From NCBI GenBank assembly GCA_026003175.1, contig BPGT01000002.1, forward strand, positions 1,240,001 through 1,304,000: a stretch of 64,000 bases of DNA. Reading direction: 5' to 3'. Positions 52,594 through 57,400 of this stretch are shown piece by piece (the stretch's first letter is position 1; every line of letters starts with the position of its first letter). The notes beneath the pieces were generated by a model that did not search any database, had not been told where the DNA came from, and worked only from the letters and a program-made list of their open reading frames with translations. Source of the stretch: Armatimonadota bacterium. GTDB taxonomy: Bacteria; Armatimonadota; HRBIN16. The translations under genes and the position numbers were made by a program.

Positions 52594-53013
52594 GTTGCTC
52601 CCCTTTCACCGCTGTCCAGTTCCTTTTCACCACAAAACATCTGAAACCCTTGTGCAACACGGGGAAAGAATCTCCCGCCTTTCTGTATAGTCTGTTGTTG
52701 GTACCGCTCTCCTGTGCTATTCTGAACGGAGCGAAGAATCGCATACCACAGGCTGAAGCCTGCACTGCCAGCCTTAGCTGTTCACTACTTATCCGTGGGT
52801 TTACGGTTCGGCGAGAGCCGCGCCCTCCCCGGATGGGGCGTAACAAACCGATCAACGAGACAAGCCTTCGACAGAGTTGCTACCACACTGGGGGTTCGAA
52901 CATAAGGAGCCGTCGCATCGACCGCTAAGATTCTTCGTGGCGCGACTTGCCAATGGCATCGAAGTGACCATCGAATGCGCCCCTGCCTCCCTGCTAATAC
53001 AGTACCGCAAACG
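52594..53013. other. Long intergenic region with degenerate repeat
   Basis: No convincing gene. It contains TGAACGGAGCGAAGAATC (also in the gap at 47326-47483), CACAGGCTGAAGCCTGC with an AGGCT-GA-AGCCT dyad, and an upstream spacer for the FHA operon promoter. Reading frames on the minus strand here lack similarity and codon bias. Confidence 0.4.
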
Positions 53014-53042
53014 TTGACGCGGTACGCATCGCAGGATATAAT
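53014..53042 (+). promoter_or_regulatory. Promoter of the FHA-PP2C-kinase operon
   Basis: TTGACG (53014-53019), a 17-base spacer and a perfect TATAAT (53037-53042). Transcription would start about 28 bases before the GTG at 53077. Confidence 0.8.
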
Positions 53043-53076: not shown

Positions 53077-54228
53077 GTGCGCAACCTGTTTGAACGCATC
53101 AATACGCTGTTTGGCAACTGGTATGAGGGGCTTTTCGGCACAGGAGGCGAGCTACACCCGCGCGAGGTGCTACGCCGGCTGGTGACGACGGCGGAAGAAC
53201 ACTGTATTGAGGGGCTGGACGGCGAGCTGTACGTCCCGAACCGCTATAAGCTGGAGATTGCTCTGCAAAACCCCGAAGAGCAGGAAGCATACCTTACCTT
53301 CCTGCAACCGCAGGAGCTGGCGGACGCACTGTGGCAGGAGCTGCAACAGGGAGGCTATCGCCTGCGTGGGGGTATCGTGTGTGAGGTGGTGGCGCAACCT
53401 GTTGCCCCTGCTCATGCTTCCAGGCAAGCACTGCGCATCACGGCGAAGTTTGATCCTTCTGTTCCTCTGCCGCTAGTGATGCGTGCGCCAACCTCCGTTC
53501 CAACCGAAGAAGCCACCAACATCGCCAGCATGCCAGCCGCCTCCATGACCGATGTGGCTACCGACGCTGGCGCGCGAGCGGTGCTCAAAAGTGAGGATGG
53601 GAAACCTCTGCTTCATCTGGCGAACCGACCGGTTATCATCGGGCGGTCGCGCAACGTAGGGTGCGACCTTGTGCTGGATGCCGACCGGCAGGTTTCGCGC
53701 CGACACGCCCGCATCGAATGGGATGCGACAGCAGGCAGCTACGTCATCTACGACCTGCAGAGCACCAACGGGTTGTATGTCAATGAGCAGCGGGTGGATA
53801 ACAGGGTACTACGTTCGGGCGACCACATCCGTGTGGGTAAAACAGTGCTGGTTTTTGAAAGCATCGAACTGCCTGCTGAAAAGCACGAAACACCCCCTAC
53901 GGAGGCACTCTCGTCACGTCCCGCTGCTATACTCACTCTGCACCCAGATACCCCACAAGAGGAGGTCTTTTCTCTACCCAGTGAGGCATTGATAGGACGT
54001 GCGCTCACCGCGAACATCGTGCTAGAGGAGCCGGAAGCAGCAATGCGTCATGCGGTTGTTCGCTGGGATGGCAAAGAGTGGGTGATAGAGGACCTGGGCA
54101 GCGTGTTAGGTACTACTGTCAATGATAAACCCATTCCCCCGCGCAAGCCCGTGAACCTGTGCCCGGGCGACATCATCTGTGTGGGCAAAACAAGAATGCG
54201 CTTCGACATCATCGAGGGATCAGCATGA
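53077..54228 (+). CDS. FhaA-like protein: DUF3662 plus two FHA domains
   Basis: A 383-residue cytoplasmic protein. Residues 1-105 match the DUF3662 domain of actinobacterial FhaA (MRNLFERINTLFGNWYEGLF opening). FHA1 (about 176-257) has all phosphothreonine-binding landmarks: GRS, VSRRHA and STNGLYVN. FHA2 (about 283-382) is degenerate: EAAMRHA replaces the SRRH site and SVLGTTVN replaces STNGT. It would recruit phosphorylated partners of the kinase encoded three genes downstream. GTG start with GGAAGGTGG upstream; an upstream in-frame extension would precede the promoter. Confidence 0.88.
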   Translation: MRNLFERINTLFGNWYEGLFGTGGELHPREVLRRLVTTAEEHCIEGLDGELYVPNRYKLEIALQNPEEQEAYLTFLQPQELADALWQELQQGGYRLRGGIVCEVVAQPVAPAHASRQALRITAKFDPSVPLPLVMRAPTSVPTEEATNIASMPAASMTDVATDAGARAVLKSEDGKPLLHLANRPVIIGRSRNVGCDLVLDADRQVSRRHARIEWDATAGSYVIYDLQSTNGLYVNEQRVDNRVLRSGDHIRVGKTVLVFESIELPAEKHETPPTEALSSRPAAILTLHPDTPQEEVFSLPSEALIGRALTANIVLEEPEAAMRHAVVRWDGKEWVIEDLGSVLGTTVNDKPIPPRKPVNLCPGDIICVGKTRMRFDIIEGSA

Positions 54229-54323
54229 ACGTTCTGGCTGGGCTGCTTCGGTTTGTGTTGCTGGCGGCGCTGGTGTTGTTCGTGCTGTACGTAGCGTGGA
54301 CTATACGACAGGATGTGGAGTAA
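54225..54323 (+). CDS. 32-residue membrane microprotein in the FHA-PP2C operon
   Basis: ATG overlapping the FHA stop (ATGA) opens a 32-residue frame with one membrane helix (LRFVLLAALVLFVLYVAWTI) and a charged end RQDVE. The next gene's ATG follows five bases after its stop. The tight coupling on both sides supports a real gene. It could anchor or tune the kinase/phosphatase complex; this is inference. Confidence 0.6.
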   Translation: MNVLAGLLRFVLLAALVLFVLYVAWTIRQDVE

Positions 54324-54327
54324 CAGA

Positions 54328-55776
54328 ATGGCACGTTTGATGACGGGGAAGAAACCTCTCTGGCAGATAGCCACCGCAACCGATGTCGGTAGAAAGCGGG
54401 CGCACAACGAGGACAGCTACGCCGTGCTCAACACGGCACAGCTGCGAGCAGTTTACGATTTCGCCCTGATCGTGGCTGACGGTATGGGAGGACGCAACGC
54501 CGGAGAGGTCGCCAGCCGTGTGGCAGTGGAGGCGGCATCGCAGGCGATACTGAACAACGTGACACACGCTGACGCCCCTGCCTTGCTGCGTTTCGCGGTA
54601 GAGGCGGCGCATGTCTCCATCCAGCAACGCGCCCAGGAGAACACGGAGTACGAGGGCATGGGCACTACTCTGGTAATCGCCCTGGTGAAGGACACAGAAG
54701 CATGGATCGCCAGCGTAGGCGACAGCCGCGCGTACATCCTGCGAGATAACCAGCTTCTGCCTTTGACGGAAGACCACACCTTCGTCGCCGAGCAGGTGCG
54801 CGCAGGCGGAATGAGCATCGAGCAAGCACGGCATAGTCGCTTCCGACACATGCTGACCCGGGCTGTGGGCACGAACGCCGACTACACTCCTGATATCATC
54901 TCGGCGAACCTGGAACCGGGCGATGCACTGATGCTCTGCACCGACGGGTTAACGAGCATGGTTTGGGAAGAGGAGATTGTGCGCCTTTTGCGCAAGCATC
55001 GTCACGACCCCGAACGTGCCTGCCAAAGCCTTATCGAGGTCGCCAACGCGCAGGGTGGGCAGGACAATATTACCGTGTTACTGGCAGCAGACATGCGCGA
55101 GGTCCCTGCCCAGTATGATGATGAAGAAGAACTGCAGACGGTCTCCGAACTGCCGACGCTTAAGAACCCGCTACGTCAGGTAGCGCGTCTAACGCAACAC
55201 CTTTCCCTCCGACACGTAGTGTCGGGTGCTGTAGCGGCGATAGTGGTAGTGGGTGTGCTGTGGGGAATTTCCTCTGTGCGAAAGCCAAAACCTGCGCCTC
55301 AGCTGCTACCGCCTCCACCTATCGTGGACCTGGCAAGCGTGCGCTATGCAGAGCAGCCGCAGGTGCTGTTGAACAAACCGTTACGTGGTGCACCGCTGGT
55401 TGTGGCGCCAGACGGCAATATCTATGCTATGAGCGAACAGGGAAGGATACTGCGCATCTCGCCGGAGGGGAAAATACTCACCGCATCCGACGTACCCTTC
55501 AGTGCTGCAGCAAATCCCGAAATCAAGCCTGACATGGTATATTTCGCCACTGACCCACAGGGTAATTTCTACGTGTGCGATCGGGCAGCCCGACGTATCC
55601 TCAAATACCGTCCGGATGGAACATTGCTCGGCAACATCGGCGAAGGCAGGTTGAAGCGGCCAGCTGCACTGGCGGTGGCAAAGGACGGTTCGGTATACGT
55701 GATAGATGCGGGCAAACTGACTGTCTTCCGCGCGATACCGGCAGGGATGGACAATGGCGCTCAGCCCCATCGGTAA
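54328..55776 (+). CDS. Membrane PP2C-type Ser/Thr phosphatase with extracellular propeller-like domain
   Basis: A 482-residue protein: PP2C domain at about 10-255 with ATDVGRKRAHNEDS, VADGMGG, GTTLVIA, VGDSRAYI and GGQDNITVLL (metal-binding Asp residues present), a membrane helix at about 296-316, and an outward-facing C-terminus of NHL-like repeats (VVAPDGNIYAMSEQGRILRI, ATDPQGNFYVCDRAARRILK, AVAKDGSVYVID). Usual PstP enzymes lack such a sensor. It should reverse the action of the overlapping kinase. ATG at 54328 has GGAG seven bases upstream. Confidence 0.88.
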   Translation: MARLMTGKKPLWQIATATDVGRKRAHNEDSYAVLNTAQLRAVYDFALIVADGMGGRNAGEVASRVAVEAASQAILNNVTHADAPALLRFAVEAAHVSIQQRAQENTEYEGMGTTLVIALVKDTEAWIASVGDSRAYILRDNQLLPLTEDHTFVAEQVRAGGMSIEQARHSRFRHMLTRAVGTNADYTPDIISANLEPGDALMLCTDGLTSMVWEEEIVRLLRKHRHDPERACQSLIEVANAQGGQDNITVLLAADMREVPAQYDDEEELQTVSELPTLKNPLRQVARLTQHLSLRHVVSGAVAAIVVVGVLWGISSVRKPKPAPQLLPPPPIVDLASVRYAEQPQVLLNKPLRGAPLVVAPDGNIYAMSEQGRILRISPEGKILTASDVPFSAAANPEIKPDMVYFATDPQGNFYVCDRAARRILKYRPDGTLLGNIGEGRLKRPAALAVAKDGSVYVIDAGKLTVFRAIPAGMDNGAQPHR

Positions 55777-57400
55777 ATACGAACGTGTAGACGTACTGGG
55801 TTACGGCGCGACGGGCATTGTGTACCTTGCGTGGGATTCCTTGCTGCGCAAGCAGGTTGCGCTGAAAGAAATCAACATCCAGGCAGGCGACATGGAGCGA
55901 TTCCTGGAAGAGGCTCGTTTGCTGGACCGCCTGAACCACCCCAACATCGTGCGCGTGCACAGCGTAGACCGTGTAGACGGCAAAATCCTTATCGCGATGG
56001 AATATGTGCCCGGCGTCAACCTGCAGGAACTGTTGCGCCAGCAGGGCAAGCTGCCCATCCGACAGGCTCTGGATATCGCCATTCAGGTGCTGGACGCGCT
56101 GGAGTATGCTCACCGCAACCATACCATCCACCGCGACATCAAACCGGGCAACATCCTGATACGCAAAGACGGCGTGGTGAAACTGGTGGACTTTGGGTTG
56201 GCGACCATACTGGGCACAGGCTCGTATGCGGGCGGAGCGGGAACCTACGTGTACATGGCGCCTGAGGATTTCGAAGAGGAAGAGCACTCCGACCATCGCT
56301 CCGACCTGTGGGCAGTAGGTGTGACGCTGTACGAGATGGTCACCGGTCACCGACCGTTCAACGCCGTCAACCCGAAGAACCCCTTCTCGTGGCAGGAGGC
56401 AGTGCAGAAGCAGCAACCGCCGCCCCTGCAGCAGTTTGCGCCCAACGCACCGTCCGCCCTGCAGACGGTGATAGAGCGAGCGCTGGCGAAGCGCAAAGAA
56501 GACCGCTACCCGACAGCGGGGGAGTTTGCCCAGGCGCTGCGTCGCGTGCAGGTGATGCTGCCTGATACAGGAGACGAAACGCTTGCAGTGGTGTCGTCGC
56601 AGGCGTATGGTGCTCAGCAGCGACAGAAACCCTCACTGCGTGTTGCGCCTGAAAGCCCGCGCTCCGCTGCTGCCCATGTGGAACCGCAGGAGGTTTCGCT
56701 CGGTCCGGTACGCCAGGGCGAGCAGTGTACCGCCAGAGTGGTGGTGCGCTCGACGAATCGCAAGCCGCTGGACGCGCGGCTGGTTTCACAACCAGGCTGG
56801 CTGTATGTGCACCCTCCTGTGCTGCAACGCAAACGGCAGATAGTGACCCTCACCGCCGACACGGGTATGGTCTCCACACAGGGTACCCTGTCTGACGTGG
56901 TGCAGTTTGTCAACGGAGAAAGCCGAATCAACATCCCTGTTAAGATCGAGGTATTGCCACCCCGTCCGCAATTCCGACAGGTAGCATACTGGTATGTGCC
57001 TCTATTCGTTGCGTGCCTGGTGCCATTATTCACCGTGATACTCGGCTCCAACCAGTGGACTCACTGGATGCCTATCGGTCTGGAACTTTCGGGCTTGCTG
57101 GGGGCAATGTTGACGCTCATCACCATCGGAGCGGAGCTGCGCTCCGGAGAGCGAACGGCGGCGGTTCTGCTGATGCTCACCGGTTTGTCGGCAACGGGAA
57201 CCTATCTGGGAGTGCTCGGCGACCCCCAGAACCACCCGCAAGGCAGGGTAGCGGTAGACCTGCTGACCATCATGGGAGCAGTGTTGCTGCTTCAGGTGTT
57301 CAGCACACGCCGCTGGAAGTGGTGGGGATGGGTTCTGGTAGGGTTATCGCTGGCTCTGTCGGGAGTGATCGCTTCGATACTGGGAACACGAGTATCATAA
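55754..57400 (+). CDS. PknB-type Ser/Thr protein kinase with C-terminal membrane domain
   Basis: A 548-residue Hanks-type kinase. Kinase domain about 8-265: glycine loop LGYGATGIVY, Lys38 (VALKE), HRDIKPGN (126-133), DFG and MAPED in place of APE. A linker and a beta-rich segment (about 300-400, VSLGPVRQGEQCTARVVVRS) precede about four membrane helices (412-530). No PASTA repeats. It overlaps the phosphatase gene by 23 bases, so the kinase and phosphatase are made together. Targets are unknown; FhaA-like protein and the following DprE-like enzymes are candidates by position. Confidence 0.93.
   Translation: MALSPIGKYERVDVLGYGATGIVYLAWDSLLRKQVALKEINIQAGDMERFLEEARLLDRLNHPNIVRVHSVDRVDGKILIAMEYVPGVNLQELLRQQGKLPIRQALDIAIQVLDALEYAHRNHTIHRDIKPGNILIRKDGVVKLVDFGLATILGTGSYAGGAGTYVYMAPEDFEEEEHSDHRSDLWAVGVTLYEMVTGHRPFNAVNPKNPFSWQEAVQKQQPPPLQQFAPNAPSALQTVIERALAKRKEDRYPTAGEFAQALRRVQVMLPDTGDETLAVVSSQAYGAQQRQKPSLRVAPESPRSAAAHVEPQEVSLGPVRQGEQCTARVVVRSTNRKPLDARLVSQPGWLYVHPPVLQRKRQIVTLTADTGMVSTQGTLSDVVQFVNGESRINIPVKIEVLPPRPQFRQVAYWYVPLFVACLVPLFTVILGSNQWTHWMPIGLELSGLLGAMLTLITIGAELRSGERTAAVLLMLTGLSATGTYLGVLGDPQNHPQGRVAVDLLTIMGAVLLLQVFSTRRWKWWGWVLVGLSLALSGVIASILGTRVS

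Follow-up and report, generated by a model that had tools for sequence, protein, structure and literature searches.

An operon that encodes both a Ser/Thr kinase and a PP2C-type phosphatase raises the question of which of the two enzymes senses the outside of the cell, and the locus described here raises the further question of what the very short membrane peptide encoded ahead of its phosphatase belongs to. The locus lies within the window, i.e. the whole 64,000-nucleotide stretch of DNA that was analyzed (contig C2:1240001-1304000 of a 4.1 Mb genome); the operon features are given below in window positions on the plus strand. The genome is placed, by sequence, in the Armatimonadota and in the same genus as Bacterium HR16, because the nearest named relatives of its FhaA protein are those of Bacterium HR16 (83% identity) and of Armatimonadetes and Chthonomonadia MAGs. 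The operon of FHA protein, microprotein, PP2C and kinase that the first-pass annotation proposed is borne out, with all four genes in that order: an fhaA-like gene, a 32-residue membrane peptide, a phosphatase with a transmembrane (TM) helix and an NHL domain, and a PknB-like kinase. Along the operon, fhaA and the microprotein gene overlap by 4 nt, the microprotein and PP2C genes are separated by 4 nt, and the PP2C and kinase genes overlap by 23 nt. A single promoter-like site is found (53014..53042), a predicted sigma-70-like element (TTGACG-17-TATAAT, 11/12 consensus match) that lies 5' of the fhaA GTG start and 3' of a longer in-frame ATG at 52975. The reading preferred here, to which we give slightly better than even credence, is that the operon is an Armatimonadota form of the FhaA/FhaB/PstP/Pkn envelope module whose FhaB has been split and whose phosphatase carries an outward domain.

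The phosphatase gene (54328..55776, with an upstream in-frame ATG at 54313) reaches Stp1/IreP equivalog level in the NF033484 Stp1 model (246.8 bits versus a cut-off of 230), and the structure of its catalytic domain is close to those of tPphA (Z 36) and PstP (Z 33.6, 1txo); the Foldseek and VIA-align matches of the whole models are all filled by catalytic domains rather than by the phosphatase ectodomain or the kinase beta-sandwich described below. In the AlphaFold2 model (33 sequences, mean pLDDT 84.7, blades mostly over 90), a TM helix (residues 299-322) is followed by a C-terminal domain (residues 345-472), in which the strands form three four-stranded blades (357-391, 411-442 and 450-472) together with an N-terminal strand (350-353) that, from its position, probably closes the third blade as in other NHL propellers. 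This half-propeller, with its C-terminal tail, is encoded at 55345..55776, and the predicted topology would place it outside the cytoplasmic membrane. The Pfam NHL model (PF01436) scores 22.8 bits on the PP2C protein (cut-off 20) and 28 bits on the isolated domain, TEN_NHL also matches, and the sequence relatives of the ectodomain are PknD and the designed Pizza proteins. Repetition in the tandem designs (Cake, Pizza) inflates their phmmer E-values, and single matches are weak; the NHL assignment is accordingly based on Pfam and the predicted structure. A TM helix and an NHL-type ectodomain occur on 33/33 orthologous phosphatases compared, and in every one the ectodomain spans 123-136 residues and is three blades long, with at most 13 of the 33 passing any one Pfam NHL-type model. 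The membrane helix and NHL-like domain that had been read from the DNA are thus confirmed, and structure prediction of the C-terminus recovers both, with only three blades and with a topology that is probably outward.

A three-bladed unit is an unusual object, since closed propeller rings contain four to twelve blades and propellers in nature are nearly always built from one chain (PMC6805158). Constructs made from PknD blades rebuild a six-bladed ring with lcm(n,6)/n subunits, which gives two subunits for n = 3 (PMC7337062, PMC6805158). Because no closed ring with fewer than four blades is known and the subunit rule gives two, the half-propeller would be expected to close by dimerization. It may be a natural equivalent of the designed Pizza3 protein, and a candidate for a naturally occurring half-propeller, dependent on pairing for its closure, is relevant to the evolution of propellers.

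The kinase gene (55754..57400; Pfam Pkinase 6.7e-55) encodes a PknB/PknA-like Ser/Thr kinase, the closest solved kinases to its catalytic domain being PknB and PknA (Z about 33). The model (pLDDT 81.8) comprises the catalytic domain (residues 1-270), a linker, a beta-sandwich (304-401) and five TM helices (407-547), the last two elements being additions by the model to what had been noted from the DNA. The beta-sandwich is taken as cytoplasmic because there is no hydrophobic segment between it and the kinase domain; Pfam and PDB sequence searches with it gave nothing reliable, with weak BACON_2 and HYDIN-like matches in a relative only. In the kinases of family f6 (L032, L033, L034, L035, L036, L061, L074) it is replaced by a different conserved juxtamembrane domain (TLDELL...WDE.RRALL.GR...WLR..GE). 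The model contains no extracytoplasmic domain, no sensor domain was matched in the window kinase with the Pfam and NF domain models, the PASTA kinase model NF033483 scores 240.9 bits and does not reach its cut-off of 450, and PASTA domains are found in 0/27 orthologous operon kinases. The absence of PASTA or any extracellular sensor from this kinase, as first proposed, is therefore upheld. In the same phylum, two PASTA domains are present on the kinase in 7/7 one-FHA sister operons tested.

The claim that the sensor was swapped from kinase to phosphatase fares less well as a whole. The operon kinase indeed lacks PASTA and the phosphatase carries NHL blades, but a PASTA kinase is still encoded elsewhere in the same genome, adjacent to rpe (L105:5947-7629, minus strand; genome C5:44000-58000), and kinase-side extracellular sensing has therefore not been given up. 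Nor is an outward domain on the PP2C of such an operon a novelty, since mycobacterial PstP (Rv0018c) is likewise a cytoplasmic PP2C with a single TM helix and an extracytoplasmic C-terminal domain, of 191 residues (PMC3052367) with two disulphides (PMC12421883) as compared with about 128 residues of NHL blades here. The accurate wording is that, in this operon type, the kinase lacks PASTA and the phosphatase carries an NHL unit. The PASTA kinase near rpe reads HGDLRPHN where the HRDxKPxN catalytic motif is usual, and its activity is uncertain. A further FHA, PP2C and kinase cluster of this genome (L106:3980-9145; genome C4:14000-30000) encodes a VWA protein, a DnaJ-FHA-FHA protein, a soluble PP2C and a kinase with a TM helix and a TPR-like C-terminus.

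Signaling from outside by way of dephosphorylation is nonetheless a sound proposal. In its fullest form, the outward three-bladed unit would pair with a second copy to form a six-bladed propeller; a ligand from outside or from the wall would set the state of this propeller, which in turn would adjust the activity of the phosphatase. Ring closure of the paired half-propellers as the switch by which dephosphorylation of FhaA-bound envelope proteins is controlled from outside, with FhaA held by a detached FhaB anchor, is a tentative extension that we regard as rather doubtful. It competes with a quite conceivable alternative, itself short of even probability, according to which the NHL unit is a fixed scaffold at sites of envelope synthesis or a link to another protein, and sensing falls to the membrane domain of the operon kinase or to the separate PASTA kinase. 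The existence of that second kinase, the conservation of the operon kinase's own membrane domain, the mostly structural appearance of the conserved ectodomain positions and the dispensability of the PstP ectodomain in mycobacteria (PMC12421883) are all in keeping with a scaffold, against which stands, by analogy only, the reading of the PknD NHL domain as a receptor (PMC1262709). The fixed ectodomain length and blade number across families suit sensor and scaffold alike.

The envelope-module reading also depends on the two upstream genes. The fhaA-like gene (53077..54228, GTG start, 383 aa) encodes an FhaA_N domain (PF12401, residues 18-106, 30.3 bits versus a cut-off of 25) and two FHA stretches, a canonical FHA1 (about 166-262) and an FHA2 (about 282-380). 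In an alignment of 34 two-FHA proteins (the window and 33 relatives), FHA1 keeps the phosphothreonine-binding signature of GR, SxxH and NG. FHA2 keeps the GR in nearly all 34 and the histidine in most, with the serine replaced in most, usually by alanine, and STNG intact in 0/34; the window protein has AAMRH and SVLG at these two motifs. Judged from these motifs, the second FHA domain is degenerate and has lost residues that bind phosphothreonine. FHA2 forms one clade (support 97) in the FHA-domain tree, where it groups with FhaB with a support of 75 in the free tree, a grouping with FHA1 being likewise accepted (p-AU 0.773).

Between fhaA and the phosphatase gene lies the single-helix microprotein (54225..54323, MNVLAGLLRFVLLAALVLFVLYVAWTIRQDVE), the start of which overlaps the fhaA stop as ATGA and the C-terminus of which is predicted to be cytoplasmic. 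Lack of conservation had been named beforehand as grounds for abandoning the claim made for it. In fact, of 43 related loci, 35 encode the peptide from an ATG, GTG or TTG start, and three others (L038, L068, L072) hold the frame with a non-standard start, for a total of 38; among nine genomes of the window's genus, which also carry a Shine-Dalgarno-like sequence upstream of it, its pN/pS is 0.06 at a pS of 0.43. Because it recurs so widely and shows so low a ratio within the genus, the microprotein is a selected protein under strong purifying selection. It is absent from five of the 43 loci (L044, L046, L048, L050, L061) although FHA2 is present there, and is therefore not indispensable. The first-pass annotation also described the peptide as translationally coupled on both sides. 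The 32-residue membrane ORF and the overlap/gap layout stand: the 4-nt overlap with the fhaA stop recurs in 16/34 loci, and in the window the PP2C ATG follows 4 nt past the microprotein stop with a GGAG within the last microprotein codons. Coupling itself is what this gene layout would suggest.

The microprotein resembles the membrane anchor of FhaB. Both show a basic residue, often with an aromatic one, opening the helix, and RRD-like charges after it, and the microprotein gene takes the slot directly after fhaA that fhaB takes in sister operons. Profiles were used for the comparison because the microprotein is too short a query for BLASTP, which gave no match to the single FhaB anchor compared. 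In reciprocal HMM searches, FhaB anchors scored above the 99th percentile of about 480 other TM segments from the same loci in 24/30 cases (p 5.6e-18, or 5e-16 with orientation-matched controls), these p values being guides only, as sequences inside each group share descent. Profile-profile comparison of the microprotein with FhaB N-termini gave 92.9% (P 3.6e-7), and none of the control helices, one from PP2C and five from the kinase, exceeded 3.5%. The peptide ends in a stop after the helix, at 32 residues, and has no FHA domain; for this reason it is named anchor-like rather than FhaB. From these sequence comparisons it is best read as a remnant membrane anchor, the surviving domain of a longer protein (FhaB), with the reservation that a helix of some 30 residues cannot prove common descent and that convergence of single-helix anchors is possible.

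Such convergence is part of an alternative that we consider unlikely, namely that the microprotein is an independent small regulator or stabilizer of the membrane phosphatase or kinase. Small single-helix regulators of membrane enzymes are common, and the microprotein lies directly 5' of the phosphatase, coupled to it by layout in many loci. However, the profile match is specific to the FhaB anchor among the helices tested, the slot is that of fhaB, and in family f7 (L041, L043, L064) the peptide parts company with both enzymes: fhaA, with the microprotein after it, begins 10-17 nt past murJ (identified by Pfam), no phosphatase or kinase adjoins, and the NHL phosphatase and kinase are paired at another place in the same genomes. 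Because this murJ-fhaA-microprotein group stands apart from phosphatase and kinase, the microprotein belongs with FhaA. The f7 arrangement, with murJ 10-17 nt before fhaA, is also a direct genomic link between FhaA and a lipid II flippase outside the Actinobacteria.

The distribution of the two forms of the operon was followed across the phylum, in which FhaA_N is present in 85/291 genomes; loci from 84 of these 85, including the window's own, were examined and fall into two main architectures. Families f1, f6, f7, f8, f9 and f32 have a long two-FHA FhaA, the microprotein and then, in most, PP2C and kinase. In most of the remaining families, fhaA encodes a single FHA domain and the next gene is fhaB, the product of which consists of a membrane helix, a linker and an FHA domain; a kinase gene lies further 3' in those loci that extend far enough to show it. 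A tree of FhaA_N and FHA1 unites the two-FHA proteins in one clade (support 99). Two further families (L081, 4106-5001; L073, minus strand) combine a one-FHA FhaA with a membrane micro-ORF and no FhaB. In the tree they are neighbors of the two-FHA clade, with weak support for this position (79), and they may represent an intermediate stage at which the FHA domain of FhaB had already been lost and FHA2 had not yet been added to FhaA.

Taken as a module of cell-envelope synthesis, the operon would work as follows. The FHA domain of FhaB is gone from its usual place and its membrane helix would survive as the 32-residue peptide, which, with its N-terminus out and C-terminus in, may tether FhaA to the membrane, while FhaA itself would carry a second, phosphothreonine-blind FHA domain. 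FHA1 would bind phosphothreonine on envelope-synthesis targets, possibly including MurJ; mycobacterial FhaA, which has a role in envelope synthesis, binds MurJ (MviN) at its pseudokinase domain when that domain is phosphorylated (PMC11898655). Such targets would be phosphorylated by the membrane kinase, a protein with no ectodomain, and the phosphatase would remove the mark. The opposing idea of an anti-phage kinase system can be set aside as highly improbable, since the PADLOC kinase models in which the kinase scores (PD-T4-6, mad6) match Hanks-type kinase domains generally, the neighbors in relatives are MurJ, RodA and PBP, and the operon occurs once in each genome and is conserved along the phylum.

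Compared with the fhaA-fhaB-pstP-rodA-pbpA-pknA-pknB operon of Mycobacteriales, the Armatimonadota operon shares an FhaA with FhaA_N and FHA domains, a membrane PP2C with an outward C-terminal domain and a PknA/PknB-like kinase. RodA, PBP or MurJ genes adjoin it in some Armatimonadota relatives, e.g. a RodA-PBP fusion or PBP gene directly upstream in f32 (L057, L059); in the window itself neither rodA nor pbp adjoins the operon. It differs in that FhaB is probably reduced to its anchor, FhaA carries an extra, degenerate FHA domain, the operon kinase lacks PASTA and the phosphatase ectodomain is of NHL type. FhaB/FipA (Rv0019c) shares with the microprotein the N-terminal membrane helix, the positive cytoplasmic side and the position directly after fhaA, and differs in having an FHA domain. 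PknD of M. tuberculosis likewise has outward NHL blades after a TM helix, but as a six-bladed propeller on a kinase, whereas three blades are carried by a phosphatase here; the designed Pizza proteins are alike as sequence relatives.

A literature search found no paper linking Armatimonadetes, an FHA domain and a kinase, and a split FhaB, a degenerate FHA2 and a phosphatase half-propeller were not found described together; by its genes, the operon appears to be a variant of the FhaA/PstP/Pkn module with those three features. The phylum offers a clean comparison between families with PASTA on the operon kinase and families with NHL on the phosphatase instead, and, with both architectures in one phylum, which enzyme senses is therefore directly testable. 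This contrast also bears on the role of PstP-type outward domains; in mycobacteria, that of PstP has been called dispensable, with no function assigned to it (PMC12421883).

Some neighboring genes vary between relatives. In genus g28 (L044, L046, L048), the two-FHA FhaA stands beside a RelA/SpoT-like gene without a microprotein, and an acetyltransferase gene also adjoins in two of the three loci. A membrane-anchored HEAT-repeat protein is encoded directly 3' of the kinase at L039:6677-8239, with equivalents in L031, L036, L045, L050, L053, L057, L059 and L063; the best homologue in the window genome is encoded away from the operon, at C2:179181-180602.
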